A stretch of 64,000 nt of DNA. It comes from Pseudalkalibacillus berkeleyi (GTDB lineage Bacteria > Bacillota > Bacilli > Bacillales > Fictibacillaceae). Below are positions 29,692-47,277 of this stretch, piece after piece. Location: positions 310,001 through 374,000 of the forward strand of contig NZ_JAKIJS010000001.1 in assembly GCF_021608225.1 (NCBI RefSeq). The letters run 5' to 3'. Position 1 is the first letter of the stretch. Every line of letters starts with the position of its first letter. The translations under genes and the position numbers were made by a program. The notes under the pieces are model-generated. The model did not search any database. It was not told where the DNA came from and saw only the letters and a list, made by a program, of their open reading frames with translations.

Positions 29692-32160
29692 ATGATCATG
29701 AGGAAAGTCTTTTCAGTATTGCTCGCGATTGCAATCGTATTTCCACTATTATTCACACAGGTGCCAAATGCGAATGCGCAATCCGGAGCAACGATAGACC
29801 CATTACTTACGGAGAAATTAGCAAATACAACAGGTGCAGTTCAGGTCATCGTCACCTTTGAAGGTGATGGAAAACCGACTGCAGAACAGCTGGACATCTT
29901 AGAGGCAGCAGGAGTAAACACGGGAATTACAATGAATGCTTTACCGATCGCGGGAGTCCTAGCGACGAAAGCACAAGTCGATGCATTAGCTTCAAATTCT
30001 GAAATCCGTTCACTTTATTTGAATGAAAAAGTGAAGTACTACAACGCGGACGCAACAGAAATAACGGGCGTTGATAAAGCTAGAATCGACGCAAAAATGA
30101 CGAAGGAAAACGGTGGCATGCCTGTATCAGGTAAAGGTGTCGGTGTCGTCGTGAACGATAGTGGAGTAGATGGAACGCACAAGGACCATCAATTACGCAA
30201 AAACCTCGTGCAAAATGTTCTAGGAAGCACGAACCTTAACAGCATTGTCTCAGGTGTCATTCCAATTACGTACACAGAAGATGTGCCGAATACCGATACG
30301 AACTCTGGACACGGTACGCACGTTGCCGGAACAGTTGGTGGAACAGGCGCAATGTCAGGTGGAAAATATGAAGGAGCTGCACCAGGAGCTGACCTAATCG
30401 GTTATGGAACAGGTGGTGCATTGTTCGTCCTTGATGGAATCGGTGGTTTTGACTACGCAATTTCACACCAAGAGAAATACAACATCGGATTAATCACGAA
30501 CTCTTGGGGATCTTCTGGCGGGTTTGATCCAGATCACCCAGTCAATGTTGCAAGTAAAGAAGCATACGACAGAGGGATTACGGTACTTTTTGCAGCAGGA
30601 AATGAAGGCCCTGGTGAAGATACGCACAACCCTTACTCAAAAGCACCTTGGGTCATTTCAGTAGCAGCAGGGGTGAAGGATGGATCGCTCGCAGATTTCT
30701 CATCTCGTGGTACAAAAGGTGTTGGTGGAACATTTACAGTAGACGGTGAAGAATGGACGTGGGTAGACCAGCCAACAATTACTGCACCTGGTGTAGATAT
30801 CATCTCAACTCGCGTCATTGCACCCGTATCTTCTTTAGCATTAGCAGATGATGCAGAACAGATTGAATCAGCGCATCTACCGTATTACACATTAATGAGC
30901 GGAACGTCGATGGCAACACCGCACGTTGCTGGTATCGTTGCATTGATGCTTGAAGCAAATCAGAATTTGACGCCAGATGAGATTAAGACAATTTTACAAG
31001 ATACAGCGACAAACATGCCTGGATATGAAGCTTGGGAAGTTGGCGCAGGCTATGTCAATGCATATAACGCAGTGGATCAAGCAATGTTCGGAACAGAATA
31101 CGGAAAGACGACGAACATGAATCAAGACTTTAATAGTTCTGCAGATTCAGAGATTGAACGCGAGGAATTTTCGGTTGACTATAATCCTGCAACACTTGTA
31201 TCAGATAATCAGCACGAGTTCACAGTCGAAGAAGGATTAACGAGCTTAGTAGCTAAAGTAAACGGAAAAGGAATACTAGAAGAAACAGGTAACCCGATTA
31301 ACTTGGTGCTCATCTCACCAGATGGAACGGAGTACAGCTCAGGAATCAGCCTACTATTTACACTTTACACAGATCGTACAGTTTCGGTTAACGCACCGAT
31401 GGCTGGAACGTGGAAAGCGGAAATCAGAGGGATTCGCGGAGCTGAAGAAAACCCAGTTGGATCAGGAACACCTGAGAATGTAAAAGGAACACTCACGTAC
31501 AAATCAGTTAGCGGTTTTACGGGACTTAATGATATAGAAGGACACCCCGCAGCAGCCGCAATCAAAACGAGTGTAAATGAAAGATTAGTAGATGGATTAG
31601 CTAATGGTTCATATCTGCCAGATGCTAACTTACTAAGAAAAGAAATGGCAAAATACTTGGTGATGGGAGCAGAAATCCGACAACAGCTTCCAGCTGAAAG
31701 TACGATATCAGATGTAAACGTTGCTGATCAGCCATTTGTTGAAGCAGTTGTTGCAAAAGGTGCAGCACTCAAGGGTGGATCTTATGAAACGAACGGTGTT
31801 ATGAAAGCAACGTCTAGTTCTTTCAATCCGAATGGAACAGTTTCAAAAGCTGAGGTCGCTTACTCACTTGTCCAAAGCTTAGGTTTACAAGAACAAGCGG
31901 AAGGTCATGAAGGAGATGTCACTGTACAGTATGGTGATGAGCGCTTAATGATCGAGGATGCTTCAGATATCCCAGCAGAGTTGAAAGGCTATGTTCAACT
32001 AGCTTTGGATTTGAATATCTTGAACGCAAAGTTTAACGTCACGCAAAGACCTTACGATCATGAACCAACCGTACACGCAACGTTCGCACCGAACGAAACT
32101 GTAAAACGCGGTGACTTTGCAGTTGCAATCTCCCGCTACTTCAATGCGTACCATCAATAA
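29692..32160 (+). CDS. Secreted subtilisin-like serine protease (S8) with SLH-like tail
   Basis: 822 residues. Signal peptide (about 1-30), an inhibitor-I9-type propeptide (about 45-120), then the S8 catalytic domain with Asp156 (VVVNDSGVDGTH), His207 (NSGHGTHVAGT), oxyanion Asn in TNSWGSSGG, and Ser406 (SGTSMATPHVAG). A beta-rich domain follows, then a C-terminal third with SLH-like repeats (HPAAAAIKTSVNERLVDGLANGSYLPDANLLRKEMAKYL; VKRGDFAVAISRYF), suggesting attachment to cell-wall polymers. GGGGAGGA precedes the first ATG. Monocistronic and terminator-flanked. Confidence 0.9.
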   Translation: MIMRKVFSVLLAIAIVFPLLFTQVPNANAQSGATIDPLLTEKLANTTGAVQVIVTFEGDGKPTAEQLDILEAAGVNTGITMNALPIAGVLATKAQVDALASNSEIRSLYLNEKVKYYNADATEITGVDKARIDAKMTKENGGMPVSGKGVGVVVNDSGVDGTHKDHQLRKNLVQNVLGSTNLNSIVSGVIPITYTEDVPNTDTNSGHGTHVAGTVGGTGAMSGGKYEGAAPGADLIGYGTGGALFVLDGIGGFDYAISHQEKYNIGLITNSWGSSGGFDPDHPVNVASKEAYDRGITVLFAAGNEGPGEDTHNPYSKAPWVISVAAGVKDGSLADFSSRGTKGVGGTFTVDGEEWTWVDQPTITAPGVDIISTRVIAPVSSLALADDAEQIESAHLPYYTLMSGTSMATPHVAGIVALMLEANQNLTPDEIKTILQDTATNMPGYEAWEVGAGYVNAYNAVDQAMFGTEYGKTTNMNQDFNSSADSEIEREEFSVDYNPATLVSDNQHEFTVEEGLTSLVAKVNGKGILEETGNPINLVLISPDGTEYSSGISLLFTLYTDRTVSVNAPMAGTWKAEIRGIRGAEENPVGSGTPENVKGTLTYKSVSGFTGLNDIEGHPAAAAIKTSVNERLVDGLANGSYLPDANLLRKEMAKYLVMGAEIRQQLPAESTISDVNVADQPFVEAVVAKGAALKGGSYETNGVMKATSSSFNPNGTVSKAEVAYSLVQSLGLQEQAEGHEGDVTVQYGDERLMIEDASDIPAELKGYVQLALDLNILNAKFNVTQRPYDHEPTVHATFAPNETVKRGDFAVAISRYFNAYHQ

Positions 32161-32164
32161 TTGT

Positions 32165-32198
32165 AAAACTCAGCCCAAAACAATTGGGCTGAGTTTTT
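32165..32198. terminator. Bidirectional terminator
   Basis: Perfect stem AAAACTCAGCCCAA/TTGGGCTGAGTTTT, loop ACAAC-type, between convergent protease and PlcR-like genes. Confidence 0.85.
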
Positions 32199-33096
32199 AA
32201 TTTGAAGGTAAGATTGCAGTAGAGTTTGACTTCAAATAATTATTTTGAATGAGAGTAACATACGATTTTTTATTCTGAAGGCTGAATACCTGTATAGCTT
32301 TCTGAAAGGATTCCTGTGCAAGAGATAAATGATTCAGCTTATGATAGTTCCGTCCGACCTGGAAATAAAGTTCACCAATTAAGTAGAAACTTTCATTTTC
32401 TATACATGATTGGATTCCTTCTTTTGCAATACTAATTGATTCATTATATTTTTCTAAGTTGGTTAATGCGTTTGAATAGTTATAACATAGTCGTGAAAAC
32501 ACTTTTTTTTCATTTTTAAAGGGAAGGCGTTTATATTGAATGAGTGCCTTTTGAAACGTTTCATCTGCTAAATTGTATTGCTCCGTTTCTAAATATATAA
32601 TACCTATGCTATTCAGAATTTCTAGTTCACGTTCTATATAATAATCTTTGCTATGATTGGTCATTTCTAGAGAATTATTTAGTAGTTCAATAGCCCTTTT
32701 GGCATCATTATTTACATGATAAATACATATCCCTTCATGCCATCTCAGCAATTGTTTCATTGCTAAATTGTTCTGGAACAATGGGTTATTCTTTTCTGAA
32801 CGAATCATCCGTTGTAAATTTACATAGTCTTTTTTTCTTACGGCGTTTCGTAGAAAATAGAAAAAATCATCTATGTATTCGTAATTATTACTTTCACTAC
32901 TTTCAAAGAAATAATCAATCTTCACACCTAATTTCTTTGAAATATGATATAAAGTATTTGCTAGAGGAGCGGTCTGGTTGTTTTCAATCTTACTAATCTC
33001 AGCTTGTGTGCAGATACCTTTACATAACTCCTTTTGAGAGATTCCCATAGTCTTCCGCAATTTTCTTACCTCTTCACCCACCATAATGAAATCCAT
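32197..33096 (-). CDS. PlcR/NprR-like peptide-sensing transcription factor
   Basis: 299 residues from ATG 33096 (AGGGGGGAAG upstream; the longer frame has no ribosome site). N-terminal helix-turn-helix EEVRKLRKTMGISQKELCKGICTQAEISKIENNQ, then a helical array of TPR-like repeats (for example LNSIGIIYLETEQYNLADETFQKAL and LIGELYFQVGRNYHKLNHLSLAQESFQKAI). This is the RRNPP architecture (Rap, Rgg, NprR, PlcR, PrgX), in which an imported peptide binds the TPR part. A divergent gene for a PapR-like peptide starts 186 bp away, followed by RiPP genes, so it is the likely activator of that locus. Confidence 0.85.
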   Translation of the reverse strand: MDFIMVGEEVRKLRKTMGISQKELCKGICTQAEISKIENNQTAPLANTLYHISKKLGVKIDYFFESSESNNYEYIDDFFYFLRNAVRKKDYVNLQRMIRSEKNNPLFQNNLAMKQLLRWHEGICIYHVNNDAKRAIELLNNSLEMTNHSKDYYIERELEILNSIGIIYLETEQYNLADETFQKALIQYKRLPFKNEKKVFSRLCYNYSNALTNLEKYNESISIAKEGIQSCIENESFYLIGELYFQVGRNYHKLNHLSLAQESFQKAIQVFSLQNKKSYVTLIQNNYLKSNSTAILPSN

Positions 33097-33207
33097 CGAC
33101 TTCCCCCCTAAAACAATATTCATATAATTATATATTGTACCAAAATTTAACGAAAAATTACAAAAATTACGGAAAATACCTGTCAAAATGGTTTGAAAGA
33201 GAAATGT

Positions 33208-33232
33208 ACCTATTACCTAATACCTGTATAAT
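33208..33232 (+). promoter_or_regulatory. Signal-peptide promoter with heptad direct repeats
   Basis: ACCTATT-ACCTAAT-ACCTGTA, three consecutive 7-bp repeats (33208-33228), run into the -10 TATAAT (33227-33232). No -35 is seen at the right distance, so activation by a regulator is likely. The block TGTATAATCAATT recurs in the promoter of the radical SAM gene. Confidence 0.55.
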
Positions 33233-33282
33233 CAATTTAACATCAATTACTTAAGGCTATTTAGTATAGGAGGTGTATATAT

Positions 33283-33432
33283 ATGATTAAGAAACTCATG
33301 ACAAATGTAACGGTTGCGTTAATGGTCGTTGCTTTTTCTACTGGTTCTTTAGATGGCATTGAAGAAATAAAAGTAGAAAAATCTGTTGAGGTAGATATAC
33401 TTTCTGATGAGAAATTACCACCAGAGCACTAA
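33283..33432 (+). CDS. PapR-like secreted signal peptide precursor
   Basis: 49 residues, MIKKLMTNVTVALMVVAFSTGSL as basic-plus-hydrophobic secretion signal, an acidic middle, and the C-terminus EKLPPEH. Size, architecture and C-terminal LPxE pattern resemble PapR of the Bacillus cereus group, whose end is ADLPFEF or a variant. AGGAGGTG lies 7 nt before the ATG. It is divergent from the PlcR-like regulator, whereas papR normally follows plcR on the same strand. Mature heptapeptide is predicted from the C-terminus. Function is inferred from architecture and neighbours. Confidence 0.75.
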   Translation: MIKKLMTNVTVALMVVAFSTGSLDGIEEIKVEKSVEVDILSDEKLPPEH

Positions 33433-33532
33433 ATGCATGTAATAGTTTGTTTACGTAATAAACCTTACAATACATAAAAGGCAACTGCTAAATAACATAA
33501 TTTTTGCCTTTATGATAAAGGTGGTAAATGTT

Positions 33533-33697
33533 GTGGCGGAAAATAATAAATCTTTAACTCCAGAAGCATTTAAGGTAAATGAAAATGGTAAAGTTATAGT
33601 TAACGATGCTCGATTGATTGATTTGATTAGAGCGAGTGTCGATGAAGCCAATACAGGCAAAAGAGGGATTGCGCCTGATCTTTCAATAAAGCCTTAA
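33533..33697 (+). CDS. RiPP precursor peptide 1
   Basis: 54 residues from GTG 33533 (AAAGGTGG 8 nt upstream; an upstream ATG at 33512 lacks a site). The leader SLTPEAFKVNENGKVIVNDARLIDLI is shared with precursor 2, where SLTP, FKVNENG, D, L and the D-I-A-DE pattern recur in the same spacing. The C-terminal core differs (GKRGIAPDLSIKP against GEQGIKVSVSVSV). A partial hairpin AAAGGCAA/TTGCCTTT lies between the signal-peptide gene and this one, and a terminator follows. Shared leader with divergent core is the hallmark of RiPP precursor sets. No database family could be checked. Confidence 0.75.
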   Translation: MAENNKSLTPEAFKVNENGKVIVNDARLIDLIRASVDEANTGKRGIAPDLSIKP

Positions 33698-33732
33698 ATT
33701 TTTTATTATTTCTTCATTAAATGTCTAAGTGT

Positions 33733-33760
33733 AACCTCGGAATCGTTCCGGGGTTTTTTA
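33733..33760 (+). terminator. Terminator after precursor 1
   Basis: AACCTCGGAA/TTCCGGGGTT with loop TCG, then T6. It separates signal peptide plus precursor 1 from the radical SAM operon. Confidence 0.8.
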
Positions 33761-33860
33761 CTTTCTGTTTGGTGTATCTAAACAACTATTGAATTTCAAA
33801 ATATTCTTATAATTATTATTAGCATAGAAAATAGGAGGAAACCAGATGTTACATAGGTGA

Positions 33861-33917
33861 GGGTCTTGTATAGAACTATAGACCCAAAAAATATATTTTT
33901 GCACTGACATGTATAAT
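33861..33917 (+). promoter_or_regulatory. Radical SAM operon promoter with palindrome
   Basis: GGGTC-TTG-TATAG-AA-CTATA-GACCC (33861-33885) is an interrupted palindrome centred about 40 bp upstream of the -10 TATAAT (33912-33917), followed by AAAAATATATTTTT, another palindrome. No -35 is seen. TGTATAATCAATT matches the signal-peptide promoter, so common control by the PlcR-like protein is plausible. Confidence 0.5.
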
Positions 33918-33963
33918 CAATTCAAGAGATTAGAGATAAGTCTATATGGGAAGGTGAATATTT

Positions 33964-35880
33964 TTGAGAGTAGCGCTGATAAACATGCCGTTTGGATCGA
34001 TATACAGACCTTCAATAGGTTTAAGTTTACTTAAGTCTGGATTAGAAAATAATGACATTGATTGTGATATTCATTATCTGAATCTGAAATTTGCTGACAT
34101 GGTTTCACCAGAATTATATAATGCCATTTCTGAAGGTCATACATTTTCAAGTAATGCGTTAGCGGGTGAAATGGTTTTCTCTAAATCGTTATTCGGGAAA
34201 GACACACTAGATTCTTATATCAAAGAAGCAAAAGTGAAGTTAGGCAACCCGAGTGAAGATTTTGAGATTATCTATGAGATACAATCACATGTTGAATCCT
34301 TCATGGAAGCTTGCTTAACAGAAATTGATTGGAGTAAGTATTCAGTAATTGGGTTTACAAGTGTCTTTGAACAGAATGTAGCTTCAATAAGCTTCGCGAA
34401 AAGACTGAAAGAAAAGTACCCAGAGAAATTCATTATTTTTGGTGGAGCGAACTGTGAAGAAACAATGGGAACAGAGTTAATTCGTCAGTTTTCATTTATC
34501 GATGCGATATGTTCTGGAGAAGGTGATGATTCATTTGTAACTTTCATTTCGGAATGGAAAACGAAAAATAACATTCCAAATGTAGGTGGGATATTGTTAC
34601 AAGATGGACTCGAAGATAAAAAAGAGAGAGAAACCCCTAGATCTAAATCAATAGTCAACCTTGATAACTTACCATACCCTGATTATTCAGATTATTTTGA
34701 ACAATTTGTCGAGTGCCATTACGGAGATCAGGTGGAAAATTCACGTTTTCTTTTTGAATCCTCTAGAGGATGTTGGTGGGGACAAAAGCACCACTGTGTA
34801 TTTTGCGGTCTTAATGGCACAAATATGAACTTCCGAAGCAAGTCGGCAGATAGAGCGTTGGAAGAGCTTATGTACTTGAGTAATAAATATAAAGACTATA
34901 CCACAAAGGCTTCCGCAGTAGATAACATCATAGACATGGCTTATTTCAAAAGCTTATTGCCAGAACTGAAAGAAAAAGGGCTCGATTTGGATATGTTTTA
35001 TGAAACCAAAGCAAATTTGAAAAAAAGTCAAATCGAACTTTTCAGAGATGCAAACTTTAGAACGATCCAACCCGGCATTGAGAGTCTTCAAACTTCTGTC
35101 CTTAAGCTTATGAATAAAGGTGTCACTATGCTACAAAATATCCAACTTTTGAAATGGTCCAAAGAATTTGGTGTCCTACCGATATGGAATATTCTATATG
35201 GTTTCCCGAAAGAAGACCCTGAAGAATATCAACGTTTGCCTGAATTGGTTAATAAAATTACACATTTGACACCTCCAGGGAGTGTTGCTCAAATACGGCT
35301 TGATCGGTTTAGTCCATATTTTAACAATTATAAGGAGAACGGACTCACTTCTGTACGAGCCATGTGGCCCTATAAGCATATTTACAGTGGGATAGAGGAA
35401 AATTCAGTTGATAGAATTGCCTATCATTTTGACTATGATTATTCAGAACCACGTGATCCACTGGCTTATACCAGCGATTTGCGTAAAGCAGTATCTTCAT
35501 GGCGGGAGTTTCATTCCAACAGCGATTTATTTTTTGTTGATAAGGAAAATGGCTTGATCGTTGTGGATATGAGAGATTCAGAGAATATTGAAATCACCGT
35601 TTTGAAAGATGAGGAACGTTTGTTGTTCATGTCATTAGATGCGGCTAAAAGTCTATCAAATGCTCATAAAGAGGTTCAAAAAGCAGGGTACGACATTTCC
35701 TTAGAGGAAGCTTCTTCCATTGTGGAAGGATTTATCCAAAAATCATTAGTATTAGAGGAAGATGGAAGGTTCATAAGTTTGGCTCTAAATACCTCCATTT
35801 ATAGTCCGAAAAAAGCATCTCTTATCCGTCTTTCTGAATGGAATAAGAAAAAAACAGAAAAAACAGCCGTATACGCTTAA
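33964..35880 (+). CDS. RiPP maturation radical SAM protein 1
   Basis: 638 residues. N-terminal cobalamin-binding-like part (MPFGSIYRPSIGLSLLKSGLE; IGFTSVFEQNVASI; IIFGGANCEETMG; GEGDDSF), then radical SAM domain with the characteristic SSRGCWWGQKHHCVFCGLNG, whose Cys270, Cys278 and Cys281 form a Cx7CxxC cluster site, as in the RiPP maturation radical SAM protein 1 family (TIGR03975-like). TTG start with GGAAGGTGA at 6-7 nt. It heads an operon with precursor 2, the M16 peptidase, an ArsR-like protein and the HExxH protein. Expected role: C-C, C-S or methyl modification of the precursor core; the reaction cannot be read from sequence. Confidence 0.85.
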   Translation: MRVALINMPFGSIYRPSIGLSLLKSGLENNDIDCDIHYLNLKFADMVSPELYNAISEGHTFSSNALAGEMVFSKSLFGKDTLDSYIKEAKVKLGNPSEDFEIIYEIQSHVESFMEACLTEIDWSKYSVIGFTSVFEQNVASISFAKRLKEKYPEKFIIFGGANCEETMGTELIRQFSFIDAICSGEGDDSFVTFISEWKTKNNIPNVGGILLQDGLEDKKERETPRSKSIVNLDNLPYPDYSDYFEQFVECHYGDQVENSRFLFESSRGCWWGQKHHCVFCGLNGTNMNFRSKSADRALEELMYLSNKYKDYTTKASAVDNIIDMAYFKSLLPELKEKGLDLDMFYETKANLKKSQIELFRDANFRTIQPGIESLQTSVLKLMNKGVTMLQNIQLLKWSKEFGVLPIWNILYGFPKEDPEEYQRLPELVNKITHLTPPGSVAQIRLDRFSPYFNNYKENGLTSVRAMWPYKHIYSGIEENSVDRIAYHFDYDYSEPRDPLAYTSDLRKAVSSWREFHSNSDLFFVDKENGLIVVDMRDSENIEITVLKDEERLLFMSLDAAKSLSNAHKEVQKAGYDISLEEASSIVEGFIQKSLVLEEDGRFISLALNTSIYSPKKASLIRLSEWNKKKTEKTAVYA

Positions 35881-35902
35881 AATTGAAAGGAGGTGAATGA
35901 TT

Positions 35903-36067
35903 ATGTCAGAGAAGAAAGTGAGCTTAACGCCGGATGTGTTCAAGGTCAATGAAAATGGTGAAGTAGTTATCAGCGATTCTCAGTTGGTAGATCAAATTGA
36001 AAAAGCTACCGATGAGATGGCTGCTGGAGAACAAGGTATTAAAGTATCGGTATCCGTGAGTGTTTAA
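35903..36067 (+). CDS. RiPP precursor peptide 2 (VSVSVSV core)
   Basis: 54 residues: leader SLTPDVFKVNENGEVVISDSQLVDQI, linker KATDEMAAGEQGI, C-terminus KVSVSVSV. The alternating Val-Ser end is an attractive substrate for a beta-hydroxylase or radical enzyme. AAAGGAGGTG precedes the ATG. It starts 22 nt after the radical SAM stop. A weak hairpin (about 36089-36112) follows, which could set the precursor-to-enzyme ratio. Leader is about 55 percent identical to precursor 1 by eye. Confidence 0.8.
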   Translation: MSEKKVSLTPDVFKVNENGEVVISDSQLVDQIEKATDEMAAGEQGIKVSVSVSV

Positions 36068-36153
36068 GAAAAATCTATTGATAAATTCAGGGGGGGTCAC
36101 TGATTGGCTCCCTAAATCTTTTAATTCATCAAGCATCATAGAGGAGGGATACT

Positions 36154-37404
36154 TTGTATTACGAATATATTTCTAAAGCGATGCTTGAAAACTGTATGAA
36201 AGTGATCGTTAGAAGGACTAAACAATCTAGAAATTTATCTGTTGGTATGTATGTAAATCATGGATCGAAAGATGAAAACAACAAAAATAACGGAATTTCC
36301 CATTTCATTGAACATATGGCATTTAGCCACGAGAATATGAATCCCAATGCAAAGAAGATGGTAGGGAATTTACTGGACAGTGGAGCGTTATATGAAGCAT
36401 TCACTGGAAAAGAGATGACAAGGTGTTGTATTACGTCACAGAGAAAATACCTACCTGATATCATAAAAACATTATCTGAGATAGTGAAGCTTCACAACCT
36501 TCCTGATGAGAGAATTCAACATGAAAGAGCAATCATACTACAGGAGGCGGAAACCTATTTTGCTTCTTCAAAAGTCAAAACCGAACTTGCAGAACGTGCA
36601 CTATGGGGTGAGCGATCTTTAGGTTTATTTGTCATCGGAAACCAAGATAATATTTCTCGATTTACAAAGGAAGAAATAGAAAGCCGATTTAGACAATTTT
36701 ATTCACCTAGTAACACCATGATTGTTATCCAAGGTGATGTCGATCCAGACGAAACAATCGGGCAGATTGCAGAAGCGTTTGATTTTTGGAAAAGTGAAGC
36801 AGTCAGTAACCCGTCACCATTGCTTGAGGTTTCTCCAAGTGTATTAGGAATAGGAAATGCCAATAGAGTCAATTTGACTGCGACATTTGTAGGACCTTCA
36901 TTTCGATCGAGAAAAAGACATGCGATGGCTTTGCTCTCAGACATTTTGGGAGAAGGATTGAAATCACGGTTATTTGTAGAACTTAGAGAAAAAAGAGAGC
37001 TAGTCTATTCGGTATATTCGTATGCACTGAGTTACGGTCTTGGTGGATACATGGCAATTGATTTCAATTGTTCCAAAGAGTCACTCGAAGAAAGTTTTAA
37101 GGTTGTAATGAACATCATCGATGATATTCAAAACAACGGTGTCACAGATGAGGAAATCGAACGTGCACGTGCTTCGCGTATTACCTCGACATTACAGATC
37201 CCTAATGATGCAGTCAGACATTTGAATACAACAGGTCGCTATGCATTATATAACAAAGATTTTTTCGTAGATACTGAAGTTTTTGATTTAATGAGCGTAA
37301 CCAAGGAAGAAGTTAGAGAGATTGCTAGGGAAATGTGTGATCAGTCTAATATGGCTTTGTCTGCACTTGGCACAGATTCTGAGTCACTGGTAACTCTACT
37401 TTAA
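36154..37404 (+). CDS. M16-family metallopeptidase, probable leader peptidase
   Basis: 416 residues. Inverted zinc motif HFIEH at residues 50-54 (His50, Glu53, His54) and a downstream ERAIILQEAE supplying the third ligand, then the C-terminal half with ELREKRELVYSVYSYALSYG carrying the Arg-Tyr pair of single-chain M16B enzymes. Both halves of the active site can be seen, although M16B peptidases usually act as pairs or homodimers. TTG start behind GAGGAGGG. In a RiPP operon it probably removes the precursor leader. It might alternatively degrade leader fragments. Confidence 0.85.
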   Translation: MYYEYISKAMLENCMKVIVRRTKQSRNLSVGMYVNHGSKDENNKNNGISHFIEHMAFSHENMNPNAKKMVGNLLDSGALYEAFTGKEMTRCCITSQRKYLPDIIKTLSEIVKLHNLPDERIQHERAIILQEAETYFASSKVKTELAERALWGERSLGLFVIGNQDNISRFTKEEIESRFRQFYSPSNTMIVIQGDVDPDETIGQIAEAFDFWKSEAVSNPSPLLEVSPSVLGIGNANRVNLTATFVGPSFRSRKRHAMALLSDILGEGLKSRLFVELREKRELVYSVYSYALSYGLGGYMAIDFNCSKESLEESFKVVMNIIDDIQNNGVTDEEIERARASRITSTLQIPNDAVRHLNTTGRYALYNKDFFVDTEVFDLMSVTKEEVREIAREMCDQSNMALSALGTDSESLVTLL

Positions 37405-37419
37405 AAAAGAGGTGGTAAT

Positions 37420-37968
37420 ATGACAAAACCAGCTGAATACATAGCTAATGCTGATAGCAATTTCCTGGATACGATCTTACATGAGGGCGGTATGGAAGTA
37501 TTGAGCCTTCTATCAGTTTCTTCTCTTACAGCAACAGAAGTTTCAAGGCAAGTTAAAGTTCCGTTAGCAAAAGTAAACTATATCCTAAAAATCTTAGAAA
37601 AAAACAACCTAGTTTATGTAGGGAGTAAAAGATATAAAGAAGATTTCGTGGAGTCAGCGTATAAAGCAGATGTAAACTCATTTGGAATTAAATTAAGTAA
37701 TCAAAATTCCAATGAGGTTGAAAAAATAAGATTAATCTCTTATATGATTGAAGAAGTACGAAATGGAATGCTTAACGCAGTATCTGGGAAAGCGCCGGCT
37801 GAATTTTCAATTGTAAAAGCCAGAATACCGAAAGAAAAATTAAAGGAATATATCCAAGGTTTGAATGACCTGAAAGATGATATTGACTCGAACCAGGAAA
37901 GTGATGATGATCCTTACACATTTGCCGTATCATTGTTCCCCGATATCAAAAAGGATGGAGTGAATTAA
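37420..37968 (+). CDS. Winged-helix (ArsR-like) protein of the RiPP operon
   Basis: 182 residues. Residues about 20-75 form a winged helix (MEVLSLLSVSSLTATEVSRQVKVPLAKVNYILKILEKNNLVYV), the rest is a helical acidic part that ends in DSNQESDDDPYTFAVSLFPDIKK, with no recognised domain. GAGGTGG precedes the ATG; 15 nt after the M16 gene and 3 nt before the HExxH gene. It may be an operon-specific regulator, or its winged helix may serve as a precursor recognition element as in some RiPP proteins; the second idea is speculative. Confidence 0.6.
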   Translation: MTKPAEYIANADSNFLDTILHEGGMEVLSLLSVSSLTATEVSRQVKVPLAKVNYILKILEKNNLVYVGSKRYKEDFVESAYKADVNSFGIKLSNQNSNEVEKIRLISYMIEEVRNGMLNAVSGKAPAEFSIVKARIPKEKLKEYIQGLNDLKDDIDSNQESDDDPYTFAVSLFPDIKKDGVN

Positions 37969-37971
37969 ATA

Positions 37972-39201
37972 ATGTTATCATTCCTACAACCTTCAAGTAT
38001 GGAAAATGATCAAATTTATAAACTCAGTATAAGATATTTTTCTAAAAAGCTCGAAACAGTCTTAAGGAAATTTGAAAAATCAGGAAGTATACCTCCTGAT
38101 ATTGCATCAAATATAAAAGATGCATTATACAATCCTGATTTTATAAGAGATGTGTACCATCCAGGGCTGAATTATTTCATAAGTTTGATGAAAACATTTT
38201 CTACCGAAGAATTCCTCAATAAAATTAATGGTTCCAACTTGACTGAGAAATTCATGAATTATTTAATTGTACCCTGCGCAAAGCATGGGGTGACACTTCG
38301 AAGCAAAATCGAGTGTAACGGTGACGGGATAATAGATATTCCTAGTTTAAATTACAAAATTAAGTTAGCAGATCGTGTACCAAATTGCTCAGTGATAACC
38401 TCTAAAAATAAGGTAACATTTTTGATAGATGGTGTGAGTATGGGGAGCATTCGTATAGAATATGATTCTAATATACAGGTTGAACTAACAGATGCAAAGG
38501 ATATTAGCTTAATTCGTAAATCTTGTGACACTACCGGAGTTATTAACTTCGAGCTGACAGATTCGACTATCAGTCAATACCTTGCAGAGAATTCGGAATT
38601 ACTTAATATTAGAAAAAAGGATTTGGAAGATAATCAATTCCGAAGCATTGAGTTTACGACGAATGATCATGCCTTCTATAATACTTGTTTAAATTCAATT
38701 CGAGATATTTGGCCCGAATATTATTTGGAGATAGAAGGCCACATAAAATTGATTGCAATTATGGATACGAATGCATTTGGGGGGTTCACCTCAGGTGTAT
38801 TGCCTGATGCTATCTTCCTATCACATAACCCCTATGATTACTTGTGGGTAACTGAAAACATTATCCATGAATGTGCCCACTCAAGGTTGGATCAACTTTT
38901 TGTCATTGATCCGATCATCTTGAACGATGATGACGAAAGATACAAGTCTCCTTGGCGGGAAGATCCACGACCACTAAAAGGCGTGTTACATGGTGCCTAT
39001 GCTTTTGCAAGAGTAGCAATTTGGTTGGAAAAGCTTCACCACTTCTACCCTGTTGATGAAGTTTTGAATAGGCTGGATGTTGTGAAACAACAATTGAGCG
39101 AAGCAATAGAGGTAATAGAGAAAAATGGATATCTAAGTCCGATAGGTGAACATTTATTTAAGGAGATATCATCTGTTGTAAAGCCTTTATCATACACTTA
39201 A
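37972..39201 (+). CDS. HExxH-type peptide beta-hydroxylase-like protein
   Basis: 409 residues. IIHECAHSRLDQLFVIDPIIL gives His299-Glu300-His303, and the following PWREDPRPLKGVLHGAYAFARV is the second hallmark of the HExxH-motif RiPP modification family (TIGR04267-like), now described as 2-oxoglutarate-dependent peptide beta-hydroxylases rather than peptidases. In a number of genomes it occurs next to RiPP radical SAM protein 1, as here. The most likely substrate is the Val/Ser core of precursor 2. AAAAAGGATGGAGTG just before the start overlaps the end of the upstream gene. Confidence 0.75.
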   Translation: MLSFLQPSSMENDQIYKLSIRYFSKKLETVLRKFEKSGSIPPDIASNIKDALYNPDFIRDVYHPGLNYFISLMKTFSTEEFLNKINGSNLTEKFMNYLIVPCAKHGVTLRSKIECNGDGIIDIPSLNYKIKLADRVPNCSVITSKNKVTFLIDGVSMGSIRIEYDSNIQVELTDAKDISLIRKSCDTTGVINFELTDSTISQYLAENSELLNIRKKDLEDNQFRSIEFTTNDHAFYNTCLNSIRDIWPEYYLEIEGHIKLIAIMDTNAFGGFTSGVLPDAIFLSHNPYDYLWVTENIIHECAHSRLDQLFVIDPIILNDDDERYKSPWREDPRPLKGVLHGAYAFARVAIWLEKLHHFYPVDEVLNRLDVVKQQLSEAIEVIEKNGYLSPIGEHLFKEISSVVKPLSYT

Positions 39202-39355
39202 TTCGATGTAGAAATATCTTCAGAAGCCCAATGATAATTTAGGAGTTTAATATCTCAGTCTGATGTAATAAGTAAATTGCAGCAATCATTTGATTGATGA
39301 CTTTACAGGGTGATTGAGTATCTACTTGGAAAAATAATTGAGATGGAGGGGAAAC

Positions 39356-40603
39356 ATGTCTGAATCATCAGCAGAAGCTAAGATCATTACGGAAAGTGAA
39401 GAACAAAAGGATAGTTTCAAGAACCTGATCGCAATTAAAGATTATCGTTTATTGATTGCTGGCCAGTTTGTTTCTGCATTGGGAGATGGGGTATATGCCC
39501 TATCACTTATTTGGGCTATGAAAATATTGACTGGATCAGCTTTGCTTATGTCATTTGTATTGGCTGCCGAAGTGGTTCCAACGATACTATTTGGTATCAT
39601 ATCTGGGGTACTTGTTGATAGAGGAAACCAAAAAATGTATATGCTTCTAGCAGATATTTTCAGAGGTATAGTGGTAGTCACCCTTGTACTTCTATTCTGG
39701 TTCAATATGCTCAACCCTTGGATGCTGATTGCAGCAGCAGTATTGGTATCTTCGTTCGATGCATTTTTCTTGCCTGCTAAGACAGTGGCCATCAAAACGA
39801 TTGTACCTGATCATTTAATGACTCGTGCTCAAAGTGTATCTGCTACCATCCAAACCGTTGTAGGTTTAGCAGCTCCTGCACTTGCCGGTGTATTGTTGTT
39901 ATATAGCCTTTCAACTGCATTCCTTTTCAATGCTGCGACTTTCTTTATTTCGTTCCTTTTCATTCTGTTTATAAAAAACAAAGCTTTGTCAGAAAAATCA
40001 ACAGAAAAATTGAATTTAAAAATATTCGGTAAAGATCTCAAAACCGGGTTTAAAACAATTGTAAAAGTGCCGATTTTAAGAGGAATGATTATATATTTAG
40101 TACTAATCAATTTCATGTTGGCGCCAATTGCTATATTATTTCCGTTATTCGTAGACAATGTGTCCCAGCTTGCGATTGTAGAAATTGCATTTTTCATTGG
40201 TATTCTCGTTGGATCAATTTCAATCAACTTTATGAATAAATTCCCCAAAATTGTACCTATGGTCACAGGGTTAATTCTCATGTTAGGTGCATTTGGCGCA
40301 TTAGCATTTACAAATAACTTTATCATTATTACAGCTTTAGTAGCTATTGCAGGGATTGGTAGCCCATTAGTAAGCATCGCATTGCAATCATTGTTTATGG
40401 TGAAGGTACCTAGGGAAGTATTAGGAAGATCTCAAAGTACGATGAGGGTGTTATTGGAATCAAGTAAACCAATCTCACTCCTGTTAACAGGTGCATTACT
40501 GGTACATTTCAGCATCAGTTCATTCTTCCTCGGAATCGCCATCTTCGGTGGTATCGTCGTTCTTATGATGATCTTGAATCCTGTCATTAGAAAAGCAGAG
40601 TAA
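39356..40603 (+). CDS. MFS transporter, probable RiPP exporter
   Basis: 415 residues from ATG 39356 (GGAGGGG upstream; an earlier frame start lacks one). Twelve membrane segments; IISGVLVDRGNQKMYMLLADIFRG is the loop 2-3 motif of the MFS_3/NarK-like exporter group. Lies 154 bp after the HExxH gene on the same strand and is closed by the terminator that ends the locus. Role as product exporter or immunity is inferred from position only. Confidence 0.8.
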   Translation: MSESSAEAKIITESEEQKDSFKNLIAIKDYRLLIAGQFVSALGDGVYALSLIWAMKILTGSALLMSFVLAAEVVPTILFGIISGVLVDRGNQKMYMLLADIFRGIVVVTLVLLFWFNMLNPWMLIAAAVLVSSFDAFFLPAKTVAIKTIVPDHLMTRAQSVSATIQTVVGLAAPALAGVLLLYSLSTAFLFNAATFFISFLFILFIKNKALSEKSTEKLNLKIFGKDLKTGFKTIVKVPILRGMIIYLVLINFMLAPIAILFPLFVDNVSQLAIVEIAFFIGILVGSISINFMNKFPKIVPMVTGLILMLGAFGALAFTNNFIIITALVAIAGIGSPLVSIALQSLFMVKVPREVLGRSQSTMRVLLESSKPISLLLTGALLVHFSISSFFLGIAIFGGIVVLMMILNPVIRKAE

Positions 40604-40617
40604 TAGGTCACCTATAC

Positions 40618-40649
40618 AAACGTTCTATGTATCTACATAGAACGTTTTC
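40618..40649 (+). terminator. Terminator at end of RiPP locus
   Basis: Perfect stem AAACGTTCTATGTA/TACATAGAACGTTT, loop TC (probably opening to CTAC-like loop), followed by TCTTT. Confidence 0.8.
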
Positions 40650-40757
40650 TTTATGCTTTATTGAAGGAAATTAATGATTGAGTTCACCAAGTTAATTTGA
40701 AATAATTTGTATTAAGAGAATGAGAAGAAATGTGCTGAAGATTGTGGGGGAGATAAA

Positions 40758-40913
40758 TTGAAATTTCTTGTTGTTATTCCGCTTATTCTTTTTGGGGCTT
40801 TTTTGTTTGGACTAACAATTGACAGCCTTGGAGATATTGGAAACTTAATATTGAAATTACTAGGTGGAGTTTGTCTATTTGTTGCAATATTAATTGGTAG
40901 AAAGAAGAAATAG
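40758..40913 (+). CDS. Small two-helix membrane protein
   Basis: 51 residues, starts TTG 40758 with GGGGGAG 5 nt upstream. Two hydrophobic segments (about 3-19 and 29-46) and a basic end RKKK. No family recognised. It opens a run of four small membrane proteins with tight spacing. Confidence 0.55.
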   Translation: MKFLVVIPLILFGAFLFGLTIDSLGDIGNLILKLLGGVCLFVAILIGRKKK

Positions 40914-40948
40914 CACATCATAAATAAATGTTATTTAAGGAGATTGGT

Positions 40949-41155
40949 ATGTTCGTTGGTCGAATTTTGTTTTTATTAGGTATAGTATTTGTTTTATTTA
41001 GTATCGTTATGTTAATTTTGGTTCCTTTTTCAAATGGTGGAGGTGGTTATACTATGCCATTATTTGGATTGCTTAATGGATTTATTGCCATAGGAGTCGG
41101 TGAGATGGTCATCGATTTGAATCATAGAAGAGTCTCGAATCCAGAAACTAAATAG
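40949..41155 (+). CDS. Small two-helix membrane protein
   Basis: 68 residues from ATG 40949 (AAGGAGATTGG upstream). Two membrane segments (RILFLLGIVFVLFSIVMLILV; PLFGLLNGFIAIGVGEMVI) separated by a Gly-rich loop SNGGGGYT. Hypothetical; likely co-transcribed with its neighbours. Confidence 0.6.
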   Translation: MFVGRILFLLGIVFVLFSIVMLILVPFSNGGGGYTMPLFGLLNGFIAIGVGEMVIDLNHRRVSNPETK

Positions 41156-41202
41156 TTTTATCATTTTACATGGTTTATGCGAGGGGATTAAGGAGGGGAA
41201 AT

Positions 41203-41526
41203 ATTTACTGGGAGACGTTGCCAAACTGGGTTTGGGTAATCTATTACACGGTTTTAGTTGTAACGTTCGTAGCTGCAATATTTAGTATGACTATTAAAAA
41301 GCACATGATCGTTTTTTCCTTTGTAGTAATTTTGAACACAATTACATTACCGATTGCAGGCTTAATGAATAGTATGGGGCGAGGAAAAGGAATGAATGAA
41401 CTAGAATTTTTTATTATTCAGTTACAAAAAGGTTCATTTTGGTCCATTTCTATAGTAATTGGGTATTTGTTTTTATTAGTATGGTGGGTTTTATTCATTA
41501 AAAAGCATACGAGTTTGGAGGTTTAA
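41203..41526 (+). CDS. Small membrane protein with apparent ATT start
   Basis: About 107 residues. AGGAGGGG ends 4 nt before an in-frame ATT, which is followed by YWETLPNWVWVIYY, an N-terminus I associate with Bacillus proteins beginning MYWETLPxW. The only ATG in frame (41170) has no ribosome site. The ATT may be a genuine rare initiator or a mutated ATG. Three membrane segments; unknown function; one nt before the DUF4181 gene. Confidence 0.6.
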   Translation: MYWETLPNWVWVIYYTVLVVTFVAAIFSMTIKKHMIVFSFVVILNTITLPIAGLMNSMGRGKGMNELEFFIIQLQKGSFWSISIVIGYLFLLVWWVLFIKKHTSLEV

Positions 41527-41527
41527 A

Positions 41528-41914
41528 TTGAATTTTTTCACAGGTGTAAGTTTAGTAACCTTAATTGCAATATATCTATGGATTAGTCAGTACTATTTAA
41601 AAAGACACCTTGGTATACAGAACAAATGGCGTTGGTTACTTTCAGAGGATAGAAATAAGCTCGCTGTTATGATTGATGTTATTATATTAGTCTTATTCAT
41701 CTTTACATATATGTTTTTCAATTTTGAGGAAAATCATTATTCAACAATGGTAAGAGTTAGCCCGATGTTTATGTTGTTTTTCCTTCAAAATATTAATCAA
41801 GGCATTGAAAAATTTCTTGTACACCGATCTGATCAATCATATTACCATAATTGGTTAGGAGCATTTGTCATACTAGTCACATTCATTATTATGTTTATAG
41901 GAGAACAACAGTAA
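41528..41914 (+). CDS. DUF4181-like membrane protein
   Basis: 128 residues, TTG start behind GGAGGTT. YYLKRHLGIQNKWRWLLSEDRNKL followed by three hydrophobic segments and INQGIEKFLVHRSDQSYYHNW resembles the DUF4181 family of Bacillus. Function unknown. Last gene of the small-protein run; a terminator follows after about 95 bp. Confidence 0.7.
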   Translation: MNFFTGVSLVTLIAIYLWISQYYLKRHLGIQNKWRWLLSEDRNKLAVMIDVIILVLFIFTYMFFNFEENHYSTMVRVSPMFMLFFLQNINQGIEKFLVHRSDQSYYHNWLGAFVILVTFIIMFIGEQQ

Positions 41915-42010
41915 GGAAATATCTATCCTATGTTTAATTTTGTGGAGGAGAATATACACACATCACAAGGGAAGATGAACATGATTCCTTTATAATGAGT
42001 AATGATACGA

Positions 42011-42047
42011 AAAAGGCACGCTCACTGAATGCGAACGTGCCTTTTTT
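42011..42047. terminator. Bidirectional terminator
   Basis: AAAAGGCACG/CGTGCCTTTT with a 15-nt loop, T6 on the right and A-rich left, between convergent DUF4181 and M3 genes. Confidence 0.85.
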
Positions 42048-42055
42048 CATTCTTC

Positions 42056-43747
42056 TTATTTAATATATGATTCTGTTTGATCTATCCATTCTTCAATATA
42101 TGATAAAACCGGTTTTAGACTGTTTGCTTCAAATGGAGAGGAAATATGGGCTTGTTTTATTAGATCATTAAATGGAAGCTTACCTCCATTTCGACACATC
42201 TCCAAATAGTTCACCCATGTTTCCTTTGGACTCTCTTGATTGTTTTTCCATAGCTGGACTGCACAAAAGTGTGCGAGATCATAGTCCATAAAATAAAATG
42301 GGGTAGTAAACAAATGACCTATTTCATAAAATTTTGTTCCACTTTCTAAAAATTCATTTCCATCATAATCTCGTTCTGGAAGATATTTATGTTCTAGTTC
42401 TCTCCACTTAGTTTTCCTTTGATTGACTGAAACATCTGGATGATCATATAGGTAGTGTTCGAATTCATCTACAGCACTTGCAAAAGGCATATACATAAAA
42501 GGAGTAATCAACTGCTCATACTGGTAACGTTTTGAATCCTCACCAAAGAAAGACTCAAACCATGGCCATGCAAGACGCTCCATTCCAAATGAAAATATTT
42601 CTGCAGAGTCGTATGGGATAATATATTCAGGTATATTCCAGTGTCGTGACATAGTAAATTGAAAAGCATGTCCGGTTTCATGTGTTAGAATGCGTACGTC
42701 ATTTGCTGTTCCCTGTAAATTAGCAAACAGATAGGGGTGTTTATTATAACTGATGTATGTAGCAAAGTTCCCACCCATTTTATTCGTTCGTGAACTTAGA
42801 TCCATTAAATTGTTGGCTATCAGTTCATTGTAAAAAGCTTTTGTCTCTGGCGATTGTTCAGTAAGGAACTTTCTATAATGATTTAATACATCTTGATGAG
42901 AGTCAGTAATAGTTCGGGATCCGTTCTCGAATAAATATCCTTCATCATAGTATTTTAGTTTTTCAACACCAATTCGATTTTTTTGAGATTCACGTAGTTT
43001 AGATACAAATGGAACACCATAATTTTTAACTTGGTTGCGATAAATGGATAAATCCGATGAAGTATGTCCAGTTCGATTCATTCTTTTGTAACCTAATTGT
43101 ATAAAGGAGGAATATCCTAACTTAGTTGCAATTTTGTTTCTTGTACAAACAAGTTCATGTAATATTTCATCAAATTGGCTTTCATTATCTTTGAAAAACT
43201 TATATTTTGCTTCATGCGCTTTTTTACGTGTGAGTTTATCTGAGGAGTTTAGATATGGAGTGATGGTTGAAAGACTTAATTCTTTATTAGAGAAGCTGAT
43301 TACTGCCTCTCCTAGAAGAGCGTGGTACTCCATAATGAGCTGGCTTTCTTTTTTTAGATCATCTTCAATAGCTTTAGAGTATGTATCATGCTTTAATTCT
43401 GCAAGTTGAAAAATTTGTTTACCCCATTGTTCTTCTAGATAATTTCTATAAGTGGCATTAAGAATGGAATTATAGTATTGCCCCACTAAAGTTTGATAAC
43501 GAGGCTCTATCTTACTAAGAATCGAGAACTCCTCTTTGAACATTCCATCATTCATATCTCGAAAATGTTGAAGTCTTACATAGTTATAGGTAGTTTCAAA
43601 AATAAAACGTTGGTCGTTAATTTTACGGAACCACTCAGACTGCTCCTTGTAATTACTAGCTTTCTCAAATCGATTTAACAAATAATTAAACTCATTTTCA
43701 TACTTTTCCATATTGATACCGATATATTTCTCAATAATTTCTCCCAT
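42056..43747 (-). CDS. M3-family oligoendopeptidase (PepF-like)
   Basis: 563 residues. Cytoplasmic zinc peptidase cleaving short peptides. HETGHAFQFTM gives the HExxH zinc site, with the C-terminal third ligand region DSAEIFSFGMERLAWPWFE. N-terminal helical part (LLNRFEKASNYKEQSEWFRKIND) is typical. GAAGGGA lies before the ATG. Monocistronic. Adjacent genes give no clue to substrate. Confidence 0.9.
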   Translation of the reverse strand: MGEIIEKYIGINMEKYENEFNYLLNRFEKASNYKEQSEWFRKINDQRFIFETTYNYVRLQHFRDMNDGMFKEEFSILSKIEPRYQTLVGQYYNSILNATYRNYLEEQWGKQIFQLAELKHDTYSKAIEDDLKKESQLIMEYHALLGEAVISFSNKELSLSTITPYLNSSDKLTRKKAHEAKYKFFKDNESQFDEILHELVCTRNKIATKLGYSSFIQLGYKRMNRTGHTSSDLSIYRNQVKNYGVPFVSKLRESQKNRIGVEKLKYYDEGYLFENGSRTITDSHQDVLNHYRKFLTEQSPETKAFYNELIANNLMDLSSRTNKMGGNFATYISYNKHPYLFANLQGTANDVRILTHETGHAFQFTMSRHWNIPEYIIPYDSAEIFSFGMERLAWPWFESFFGEDSKRYQYEQLITPFMYMPFASAVDEFEHYLYDHPDVSVNQRKTKWRELEHKYLPERDYDGNEFLESGTKFYEIGHLFTTPFYFMDYDLAHFCAVQLWKNNQESPKETWVNYLEMCRNGGKLPFNDLIKQAHISSPFEANSLKPVLSYIEEWIDQTESYIK

Positions 43748-43882
43748 ATTCGTCCAATCCCTTCAGTGTGATTACATATATTGTAATGTATATTACCCTT
43801 TAAAGTAAATATAATTATTTTGAAGCGTAATAATTCTAATGGTGGGTTTTGGCTCTCATCATTTTTATAGAGGCGGTTTCAT

Positions 43883-44179
43883 ATGTTTAAACAGTATATA
43901 AGATTTAATTTGTTACTACTGCCACTTTACCTACTATTAGGTATGGCACTAATCATAGGCATACTATTGACCGCAGAACGTGAAGGGTACTTTACCCATA
44001 TGGCAATAGTTATCCTGCAATTATGGGTGTTAACAATCATTCCAAATATTATTTACTGTGTGATGAAAAGAAATGAGCCGGGGAATATTTTAGGATTTCT
44101 AATCACATTGGTGGTATGCCCTGTTCCATACTTCATCATAGCTGTAATAATGAGGGTGACATATGTTCAACAGTTTTAA
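43883..44179 (+). CDS. Hypothetical three-helix membrane protein
   Basis: 98 residues, AGAGGCGG before the ATG. Hydrophobic segments at about 8-30, 40-60 and 68-93. No family recognised. Stands alone between the M3 peptidase and the interrupted GyrI-like gene. Confidence 0.6.
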   Translation: MFKQYIRFNLLLLPLYLLLGMALIIGILLTAEREGYFTHMAIVILQLWVLTIIPNIIYCVMKRNEPGNILGFLITLVVCPVPYFIIAVIMRVTYVQQF

Positions 44180-44298
44180 TATGAATCAGATGGAAAATTA
44201 GGATAAATTCATTGGAATAAAAAGGATAATGATAGATGGTTATGGAAGATTTCTGAAGAAGCTTAGATAACCTAAAATGATGAGAGGAGACTGAACTT

Positions 44299-44775
44299 AT
44301 GGAAAAAGTTAATTCTATTAGGACATGTGGAGTAGAGGAGGTTTCCGAAAAGAAGCTGGTCGGCTTTCGCGTCGTTTGTGACGATATGAACGGATATATC
44401 CAAGAAATTCCTAAGGCCTAGATGTTACTAAGTAGACGTAAATCAGAAATAAAGCACTTAGTAGAACCAGTCAAGCTTATTGGTGCATTCAAATCTTCTG
44501 AGACTAAAGAAGACAATGGCTACTGGGTTTGTTATGAAGTCCGAAATTTTGAGGATGTTCCTGAAGGGATGGTTCGTCTCTTTACCCCAGCACAAATGTA
44601 TGCAGTTCTTCACTATGAAGGTCACGCCTCTAAAATTCACCAAGTTTATTCTCATTTGCATCAATGGATTGAGGAGAACGGCTACAATAGACTACGAGAA
44701 AAATGGTCACTAGAAATTTATTCTAAATGGACAGAAAACGAAGACAATGTGAAACTTTGTGATCCAGTCGACTAA
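44299..44775 (+). pseudogene. GyrI-like (effector-binding) gene interrupted by TAG
   Basis: One continuous frame of 158 codons with an amber TAG at 44419-44421. The first 40 codons (MEKVNSIRTCGVEEVSEKKLVGFRVVC...IQEIPKA) and the part after the stop (SRRKSEIKHLVEPVKLIGAF, GYWVCYEVRNFEDVPEGMV, YAVLHYEG, HQWIEENGY, EIYSKW) match the two halves of a GyrI-like small-molecule-binding protein in unbroken alignment. GAGAGGAG precedes the first ATG. An ATG directly follows the stop, so a shortened product could be made by reinitiation. Confidence 0.75.
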
Positions 44776-44903
44776 TTGCAATTAGAAAGATTACAGTCTA
44801 TCAGTGTACAAATGTTCATTTTTTTCATCTCTATTATATTCAATCTGGATGAAAGTCTATCTTTTTGTTATAAAGGAAAGAGTACAACGTTATAGAGAAT
44901 TGT

Positions 44904-44939
44904 GAGCGATGCCTTATTTAGAGTAATCGCTCCTTTTTA
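44904..44939 (+). terminator. Rho-independent terminator
   Basis: GAGCGAT/ATCGCTC with a 15-nt loop, then CT5. Lies in the 215-bp gap after the GyrI-like gene. Confidence 0.7.
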
Positions 44940-44990
44940 TTTTGAATACAGTATAAATGGTGCATTAATCCAGTTAAAGGGGTTGTTGGC

Positions 44991-45161
44991 ATGACAGATA
45001 AAAAGGGATAAGATAAGTCTTCTAAAGGTGGTCCATACATAGGTGTTGGGATCGCATTAGGAGTTGCGCTCGGTGTAGCTTTTGATCGAATTGCAATCGG
45101 AATTGCGCTTGGTGTTGCTCTTGGAGCAGCAGCTGATCATTACAAAAAAATCAAAAAATAA
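44991..45161 (+). pseudogene. Glycine-zipper small membrane gene with early TAA
   Basis: AAAGGGG and ATG are followed after six codons (MTDKKG) by TAA at 45009-45011; the frame then continues without break for 49 codons (GGPYIGVGIALGVALGVAF, AIGIALGVALGAAADHYKK), a Gly/Ala-rich zipper typical of a family of about 60-residue Bacillus proteins. The reading frame is otherwise intact, so the mutation looks recent, or the base call is wrong. Confidence 0.65.
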
Positions 45162-45215
45162 ACAAATAGATAGTGGGACAAGGTACCTGTCCCCTCGTCC
45201 CAGGAGGATTATTGA

Positions 45216-47207: not shown

Positions 47208-47277
47208 AAGGAATCATGCTTACATTCTGTCATGTGCGTATTAAACTCGTGTTAGAGTAAAGAAAGGAGTCTGTACG

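Follow-up and report, generated by a model that had tools for sequence, protein, structure and literature searches.

What kind of pathway is encoded by an operon of peptide-modifying enzymes that lies back to back with a PlcR-like receptor, and what would its product do for the cell? The question is raised by positions 32197-40603 of a 64,000-nucleotide stretch of Pseudalkalibacillus berkeleyi (assembly GCF_021608225.1, contig NZ_JAKIJS010000001.1, positions 310,001-374,000, forward strand; the whole stretch is called the window here), where genes for the receptor, a small export-type peptide, two short precursors, a radical S-adenosylmethionine (SAM) protein, an M16 peptidase, a winged-helix protein, an HExxH protein and a major facilitator superfamily (MFS) protein lie together. 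The gene content of this locus, checked by open reading frame (ORF) lists and family searches (Pfam, NCBIfam), its conservation and its precursor family are established. Read from sequence, the locus is probably an operon for a ribosomally synthesized and post-translationally modified peptide (RiPP) that is induced by a peptide pheromone, and in which PoyC-like C-methylation and oxidation would yield a product of ~9 residues exported by the MFS protein. The genes named in an earlier reading of this DNA (the original prediction) were all recovered in place, and the winged-helix gene (37420-37968), absent from its list, is a further conserved member of the set.

The original prediction had staked its case on co-occurrence of these genes in related genomes, and such co-occurrence was found. 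A scan of genome contigs with the radical SAM protein confirmed 123 relatives, the best 80 of which, representing 75 distinct loci, were kept; by tblastn, the block of precursor, radical SAM protein, M16 peptidase, winged-helix protein, HExxH protein and MFS protein is complete in 7 of these 75 (Lysinibacillus L004, Rossellomorea L009, Paenibacillus L005, L006, L008 and L010, and Brevibacillus L007). Two relatives of the same order (G050, locus L091; G280, locus L092) hold further full sets, and G721 and G776 proved to carry the Brevibacillus and the Rossellomorea aquimaris L009 loci again, giving 10 distinct full loci with the window, all of them in Bacilli. The MFS gene stands ahead of the HExxH gene in the Paenibacillus and Brevibacillus loci. 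At E ≤1e-80 the radical SAM protein occurs in 4 of 397 genomes of the order and 6 of 398 of the class (the window's own genome being counted in both), and, of the 34 genomes of the window's family, only the window's own has the HExxH gene. The other block genes were not found in the 17-18 kb around two places in G665 and one in G615, save a distant MFS protein (22%) in G615; three more genomes (G098, G575, G599) were examined over 4.8 kb only. Compared with L091, L092 and L009, precursor 2 differs by 22-25 synonymous and 9-12 non-synonymous codons of 54 (23 and 9 for L092), a pattern that, judged from these counts, is as for a translated, selected gene; codon counts are given because the synonymous rate (dS) is saturated for 5 of 6 precursor pairs, as it is for the MFS protein and the receptor between L091 and L092. 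Recurrence of the block in 10 distinct loci, together with mostly synonymous codon changes in precursor 2, therefore indicates that the locus is more than a chance assembly.

Both precursors, with start sites set by ribosome-binding sites, are 54 residues long: precursor 1 (33533..33697, + strand) begins with GTG at 33533 behind the Shine-Dalgarno sequence AAAGGTGG, and precursor 2 (35903..36067, + strand) with ATG at 35903. No match better than E 0.06 was obtained for either in Pfam or NCBIfam. Their description as twins holds for the common leader and fails for the cores, since precursor 2 ends in IKVSVSVSV directly after GEQG and precursor 1 ends in APDLSIKP; the VSVSVSV core proposed for the 54-residue precursors thus belongs to precursor 2. 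An alignment of 12 precursors from the 10 loci gives a conserved leader, [LI]-x-P-[DE]-x-F-x-V followed by an N/G-rich stretch and V, in which P, F, V, N, G and V are invariant, and GEQG, with the core next to it, is found in 10 of the 12. At each of the 10 loci one precursor closes with an alternating core, [VI]S[VI]S[VA]S[VFI], as in IKVSVSVSV (window), VVISISVSV, IRISVSASF, VQVSVSVSF and VTVSVSVSI; the L005 precursor has four additional residues ahead of it.

Which modifications such a core might receive is suggested by the two oxidative enzymes. The radical SAM protein (33964..35880, + strand) is a probable B12-type enzyme of TIGR03975, a RiPP C-methyltransferase family (631.1 bits, cut-off 281.85), weakly matches TokK (E 3.1e-4), and carries a Cx7Cx2C motif (CWWGQKHHCVFC in the window) that is found in 10 of 10 loci. 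The same unusual motif occurs in PoyC, an enzyme for beta-carbon methylation of Val and Ile (PMC11285071). With its beta-branched residues spaced by serines, the core may be methylated at several Val/Ile positions, and the enzyme would bind the common leader and methylate the beta carbons of the core in a PoyC-like manner (tert-leucine type, +14 Da each). Conversion of Val to cyclopropylglycine, as by TvgB (PMC9062424), was considered and set aside because TvgB is a SPASM-type enzyme and the window protein a member of TIGR03975.

The HExxH protein (37972..39201, + strand; HECAH, PWREDPRP) matches TIGR04267, the family named for α-ketoglutarate (αKG)-HExxH-type peptide beta-hydroxylases, above cut-off (85.1 bits, cut-off 40), and is predicted either to oxidise the peptide in an αKG-dependent reaction (+16 Da) or to cleave it oxidatively at the C-terminus. 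HExxH is also a metallopeptidase motif and a family member, PflC, is proteolytic without its leader peptide (PMC12636437), so the protein could instead be a peptidase in a pathway of methylation and proteolysis only. A structural model built from the protein's own alignment (predicted local distance difference test, pLDDT, 80) argues otherwise, and we consider a peptidase very unlikely: the model matches SjiH (22ob, known here from its PDB title; E 1.7e-13, template modelling score 0.62) and the αKG-dependent ChlH (8s5f, E 4.7e-10), with both of which the protein shares HExxH and PWRxDxRPxxG, and peptidases reached E 0.16 at best in this fold comparison.

Leader removal would fall to the M16 peptidase (36154..37404, + strand; PF00675 and PF05193), which probably cleaves at or near GEQG and keeps its HFIEH motif in 10 of 10 loci. 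The winged-helix protein (37420..37968, + strand) scores 27.1 bits against TrmB (PF01978, cut-off 25.6), and its poor model (pLDDT 57.3) matches mostly ArsR/MarR regulators among the 50 matches listed, in line with a second, local regulator; no PqqD-type chain, which might have marked a RiPP recognition element, appeared among the same 50 matches to this poor model. The MFS protein (39356..40603, + strand; PF07690 E 1.3e-28; TIGR00900 195 bits, under the cut-off of 319.6) is the probable export and immunity pump, which would export the extended peptide of ~9 alternating Ser and hydrophobic residues and shield the producer.

How would such a pathway be turned on? The receptor (32197..33081, - strand; ~294 residues) has the features by which RRNPP proteins are recognized (~250-500 residues with tetratricopeptide repeats, TPRs; PMC10075063) plus a helix-turn-helix domain: it is 294 residues long and contains HTH_3, TPR_8 and RNPP_C (PF18768, E 1.3e-19). 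PlcR (2qfc, residues 6-281, E 2.5e-16) is its sole PDB sequence match at E 0.001, and it is the single RNPP_C match in its genome; similar proteins (E 1e-25) occur in 176 of 397 genomes of the order, its own included. Adjoining it on the opposite strand is a 49-residue ORF (33283..33432, +) with a good ribosome-binding site (GGAGGTG), a basic start, a hydrophobic stretch and the C-terminus EKLPPEH, features of a candidate pheromone precursor. In PlcR systems papR lies downstream of plcR on the same strand, so the original prediction of a PlcR/PapR-like pair stands for the receptor, which is related to PlcR over its length, and not for the arrangement, the signal ORF here being divergent. Among the 14 best receptor homologues (some nearly identical to one another), 9 adjoin a small ORF, picked by a simple filter, whose start looks export-like and whose C-terminus contains LP (ELPGLY and GLPNQH in three cases each, ELPYQH and ELPTIF in one each, and five copies of ELPPVH in the ninth); 6 of these ORFs are divergent and 3 downstream, and the same filter found none at the remaining 5 homologues. 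The window's LPPEH fits this LP code. The ORF with the ELPPVH repeats, a candidate pheromone precursor of 66 residues beside a PlcR-like receptor, is at L128 2536-2736 (G105).

We propose that, after export, the 49-residue peptide is cut down to a C-terminal fragment (...LPPEH), which is re-imported and bound by the receptor, and that the peptide-bound receptor would turn on the divergent operon. L091, L092 and L009 have a receptor with a divergent small peptide in the corresponding position, the peptides ending in ELIPGNH, DFIEGNH and EIIEGNH; the L009 receptor frame (Rossellomorea aquimaris JM7, 7731-8625) is split by a frame change, through sequencing error or decay. In the window a 9-base direct repeat, AATACCTGT, which may be due to chance, occurs at 33175 and 33219.

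The receptors at these loci are not of one line. Between the window and L091, identity is 23% for the receptor and 33% for the signal, compared with 73% for the radical SAM protein, 77% for the precursor, 88% for the M16 peptidase, 74% for the winged-helix protein, 55% for the HExxH protein and 75% for the MFS protein; between L091 and L092 the respective values are 64, 35, 73, 84, 87, 77, 60 and 77%. The operons are thus about equally distant but the window receptor is only 23% identical to that of L091, which points to a receptor of another lineage and an exchanged quorum-sensing cassette. In a tree of 23 receptors the window protein falls in the LP lineage, apart from L091 and L092, with a 100/100 split that is partly by construction, the sequences having been fetched by two queries (L139 was left out as partial). 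The window receptor is no ortholog of its counterparts in relatives, and these sequence comparisons suggest that receptor and pheromone can be exchanged as a cassette. In G013, a member of the window's own family (L143 8397-8567 and 7325-8326), and in G321 (L142 6123-7130 with L138 1247-1384), an L091-lineage receptor and a divergent secreted-type peptide with the C-terminus DPIIGHH precede a quite different cluster, polyketide- or ligase-like from sequence reading only, so such pairs may serve several pathways.

What the product does is hinted at by two relatives that lack the pathway. In G094 (locus L140) and G340 (locus L141), an MFS gene lies directly beside, and divergent from, an L091-type receptor (71% and 65% identical); these genomes have no radical SAM protein at E 1e-80 and no precursor, and no other block gene was found within 18 kb. 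L140 is collinear with L091 on both flanks, its gap opening immediately ahead of the signal gene and closing immediately ahead of the MFS gene, with the receptor-side intergenic part retained; collinearity of L141 with L092 is partial past receptor and pump. The L092 signal has no counterpart in G094 and a chance-level match in G340 (E 0.85, inside a 307-residue frame), which is a weak test as signals vary. A site, TGCA[TC]AAATGCATA, spotted by eye and possibly due to chance, is common to L091, L092, L009, L140 and L141; it was not seen by eye in the window's intergenic region. The MFS gene is intact and under purifying selection (non-synonymous rate, dN, 0.036 and dS 0.55 for L091-L140; dN 0.014 and dS 0.48 for L092-L141), the receptor changing faster (dN/dS 0.17/1.26 and 0.066/0.53, respectively). 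In the MFS tree L140 groups with L091, and L141 with L092 and L009, a single clade of L140 and L141 being rejected (approximately unbiased test, p-AU 1e-135). Within the genus of G280 the MFS gene occurs in 3 of 36 genomes, two with full loci and one with receptor plus pump.

The simplest reading of these sequences is that production was lost and protection kept, twice independently in two genera, and non-producers with receptor and pump would then have arisen at least two times; an ancestral receptor-pump pair is a possibility instead. A pump kept under purifying selection without the pathway suggests that the product is harmful and the pump protective, and close relatives would be the most likely targets. 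One might suppose instead that the modified VSVSVSV peptide is itself the signal, and the MFS protein merely its exporter, given a small exported peptide, an adjacent receptor, two precursors and the lack of a recognisable immunity gene other than the pump. We think this unlikely, as a separate export-type peptide with a fitting C-terminal code sits at the receptor, and retention of receptor and pump in two relatives without any precursor fits protection better than signalling. More tentatively, the system could be a pheromone-gated peptide weapon with an exchangeable cassette, whose weapon-less relatives keep receptor and pump to sense producers and induce protection (eavesdropping immunity), the product being a short strand in which Ser alternates with residues that are beta-methylated and in part oxidised. 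We know of no product of this kind.

Several observations weigh against a pheromone-induced C-methylation pathway or parts of it. The radical SAM protein alone tells little, 68 of its 75 loci (several of them short contigs) lacking the complete block; it scores 16.6 bits against Pfam B12-binding, below the cut-off of 32.1, and a sponge metagenome study excluded TIGR03975 clusters as likely false positives (PMC9426513). Extra precursors carry other cores, IAPDLSIKP in precursor 1 of the window and IKISLSMDN in L009, and an extra precursor of L092, outside the 12-sequence alignment, ends in IIPDICCYVC. The retained pump is the single observation that suggests harm to relatives. A scan with the PlcR-box consensus gave no significant site: at most 7 of 10 positions agreed in the window, a score reached in 918 of 1000 shuffles (P 0.92), and P 0.21-0.22 against 1000 letter shuffles in L091, L092 and L009. 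By tblastn, no such receptor was found at the other six full loci (best E 0.028, 21%); the receptor-peptide pair, present at 4 of the 10, is therefore not a fixed part of the pathway. These six loci, and the presence of the winged-helix gene in 10 of 10, would suit an explanation in which receptor and small peptide are chance neighbours that exert no control and the winged-helix protein is the regulator. We regard this as quite improbable, since the same divergent layout recurs at the same place in four loci of three genera with two distant receptor lineages, and the L140 break retains the intergenic part ahead of its MFS gene.

How the proposed pheromone-controlled pathway compares with known systems can be judged from several precedents. 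The TprA/PhrA locus has lanthipeptide chemistry, unlike the window, and the polytheonamide precursor is long, compared with 54 residues and a short core here. As in the window, a PlcR-subfamily receptor stands beside a peptide cluster in the TprA/PhrA lanthipeptide locus of pneumococcus (Hoover 2015, cited in PMC10075063), and polytheonamide PoyB and PoyC share its predicted B12 radical SAM C-methyltransferase type, PoyC having Cx7Cx2C and methylating Val/Ile (PMC11285071). The Rgg/SHP-controlled radical SAM-modified RiPPs of streptococci (streptide, tryglysin) likewise combine an RRNPP receptor with such a peptide (PMC13361665, PMC8092268), and in Rgg/SHP groups I and II the signal peptide is divergent, as here (PMC13361665). 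Unlike these Rgg/SHP systems, the window has a PlcR-type receptor, a probable B12-type radical SAM protein, an HExxH oxygenase, an M16 peptidase, an MFS protein and another precursor. The αKG-HExxH enzymes ChlH, BpmH, PflC/PosC and SjiH are of the same family and fold as the window protein; ChlH, BpmH and PflC/PosC act on other substrates, and a pairing with the present radical SAM protein was not found in the accessible part of that study (PMC12636437). RRNPP_Detector (2023) reported an RRNPP pair next to 196 biosynthetic gene clusters (25 from Bacillaceae), and the present loci may be included in that set; the accessible text contains no analysis of the present enzyme or precursor family that we could find (PMC10075063). 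Searches of the open literature turned up no account of this family of precursors and enzymes, most subscription papers lying outside that coverage, and the core letters as a query returned unrelated papers only. RRNPP control of RiPPs is already known, so what is new is the combination of enzymes and precursor, the swapped receptor and the receptor-plus-pump relatives.

A synthetic LPPEH peptide is a candidate inducer of a pathway that is otherwise silent. Few members of the families of the pathway's two oxidative enzymes have been characterised, and its small substrate (54 residues with a ~9-residue core) is easily expressed. The loci also form a natural set, some full, one receptor-swapped and others with receptor plus pump, which makes testable both the exchange of signal and receptor on biosynthetic operons and whether bacteria retain a quorum-sensing receptor only as a guard against producers.

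Among mobile elements, viral contigs held no relatives of the HExxH protein, and 11 plasmid records had distant matches, none covering 80% of the query. A Niallia plasmid (L090 12001-14096) encodes a radical SAM protein 48% identical to that of the window beside a 56-residue ORF without the core; the remaining genes of the set were not found by tblastn within 25.9 kb. In the window, a terminator-like hairpin (33733..33755, + strand; 10 pairs, then TTTT) between precursor 1 and the radical SAM gene could give a high precursor-to-enzyme ratio; 8 such sites occur in the region compared with a shuffle mean of 4.4 (standard deviation 2.2), so this single site is not proven.

As to genomic place, an S8 protease gene ends at 32160, adjoining the receptor, and G+C content falls from 0.43 to 0.33 at 32 kb of the window. 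Of the three congeners examined, two (L113, L114) have the counterpart of the window gene starting at 47278 at ~0.6-0.7 kb past the S8 gene, with a 179-residue ORF between them in L113; in the third (L115) the S8 gene had no match in the 12.5 kb examined, which has no bearing on the question of an island. From the short arrangement in L113 and L114, the operon sits in ~15 kb (32160-47278) that is missing there in those relatives. The rest of this interval encodes small membrane proteins and oligopeptidase-like, GyrI-like and helicase-like proteins.

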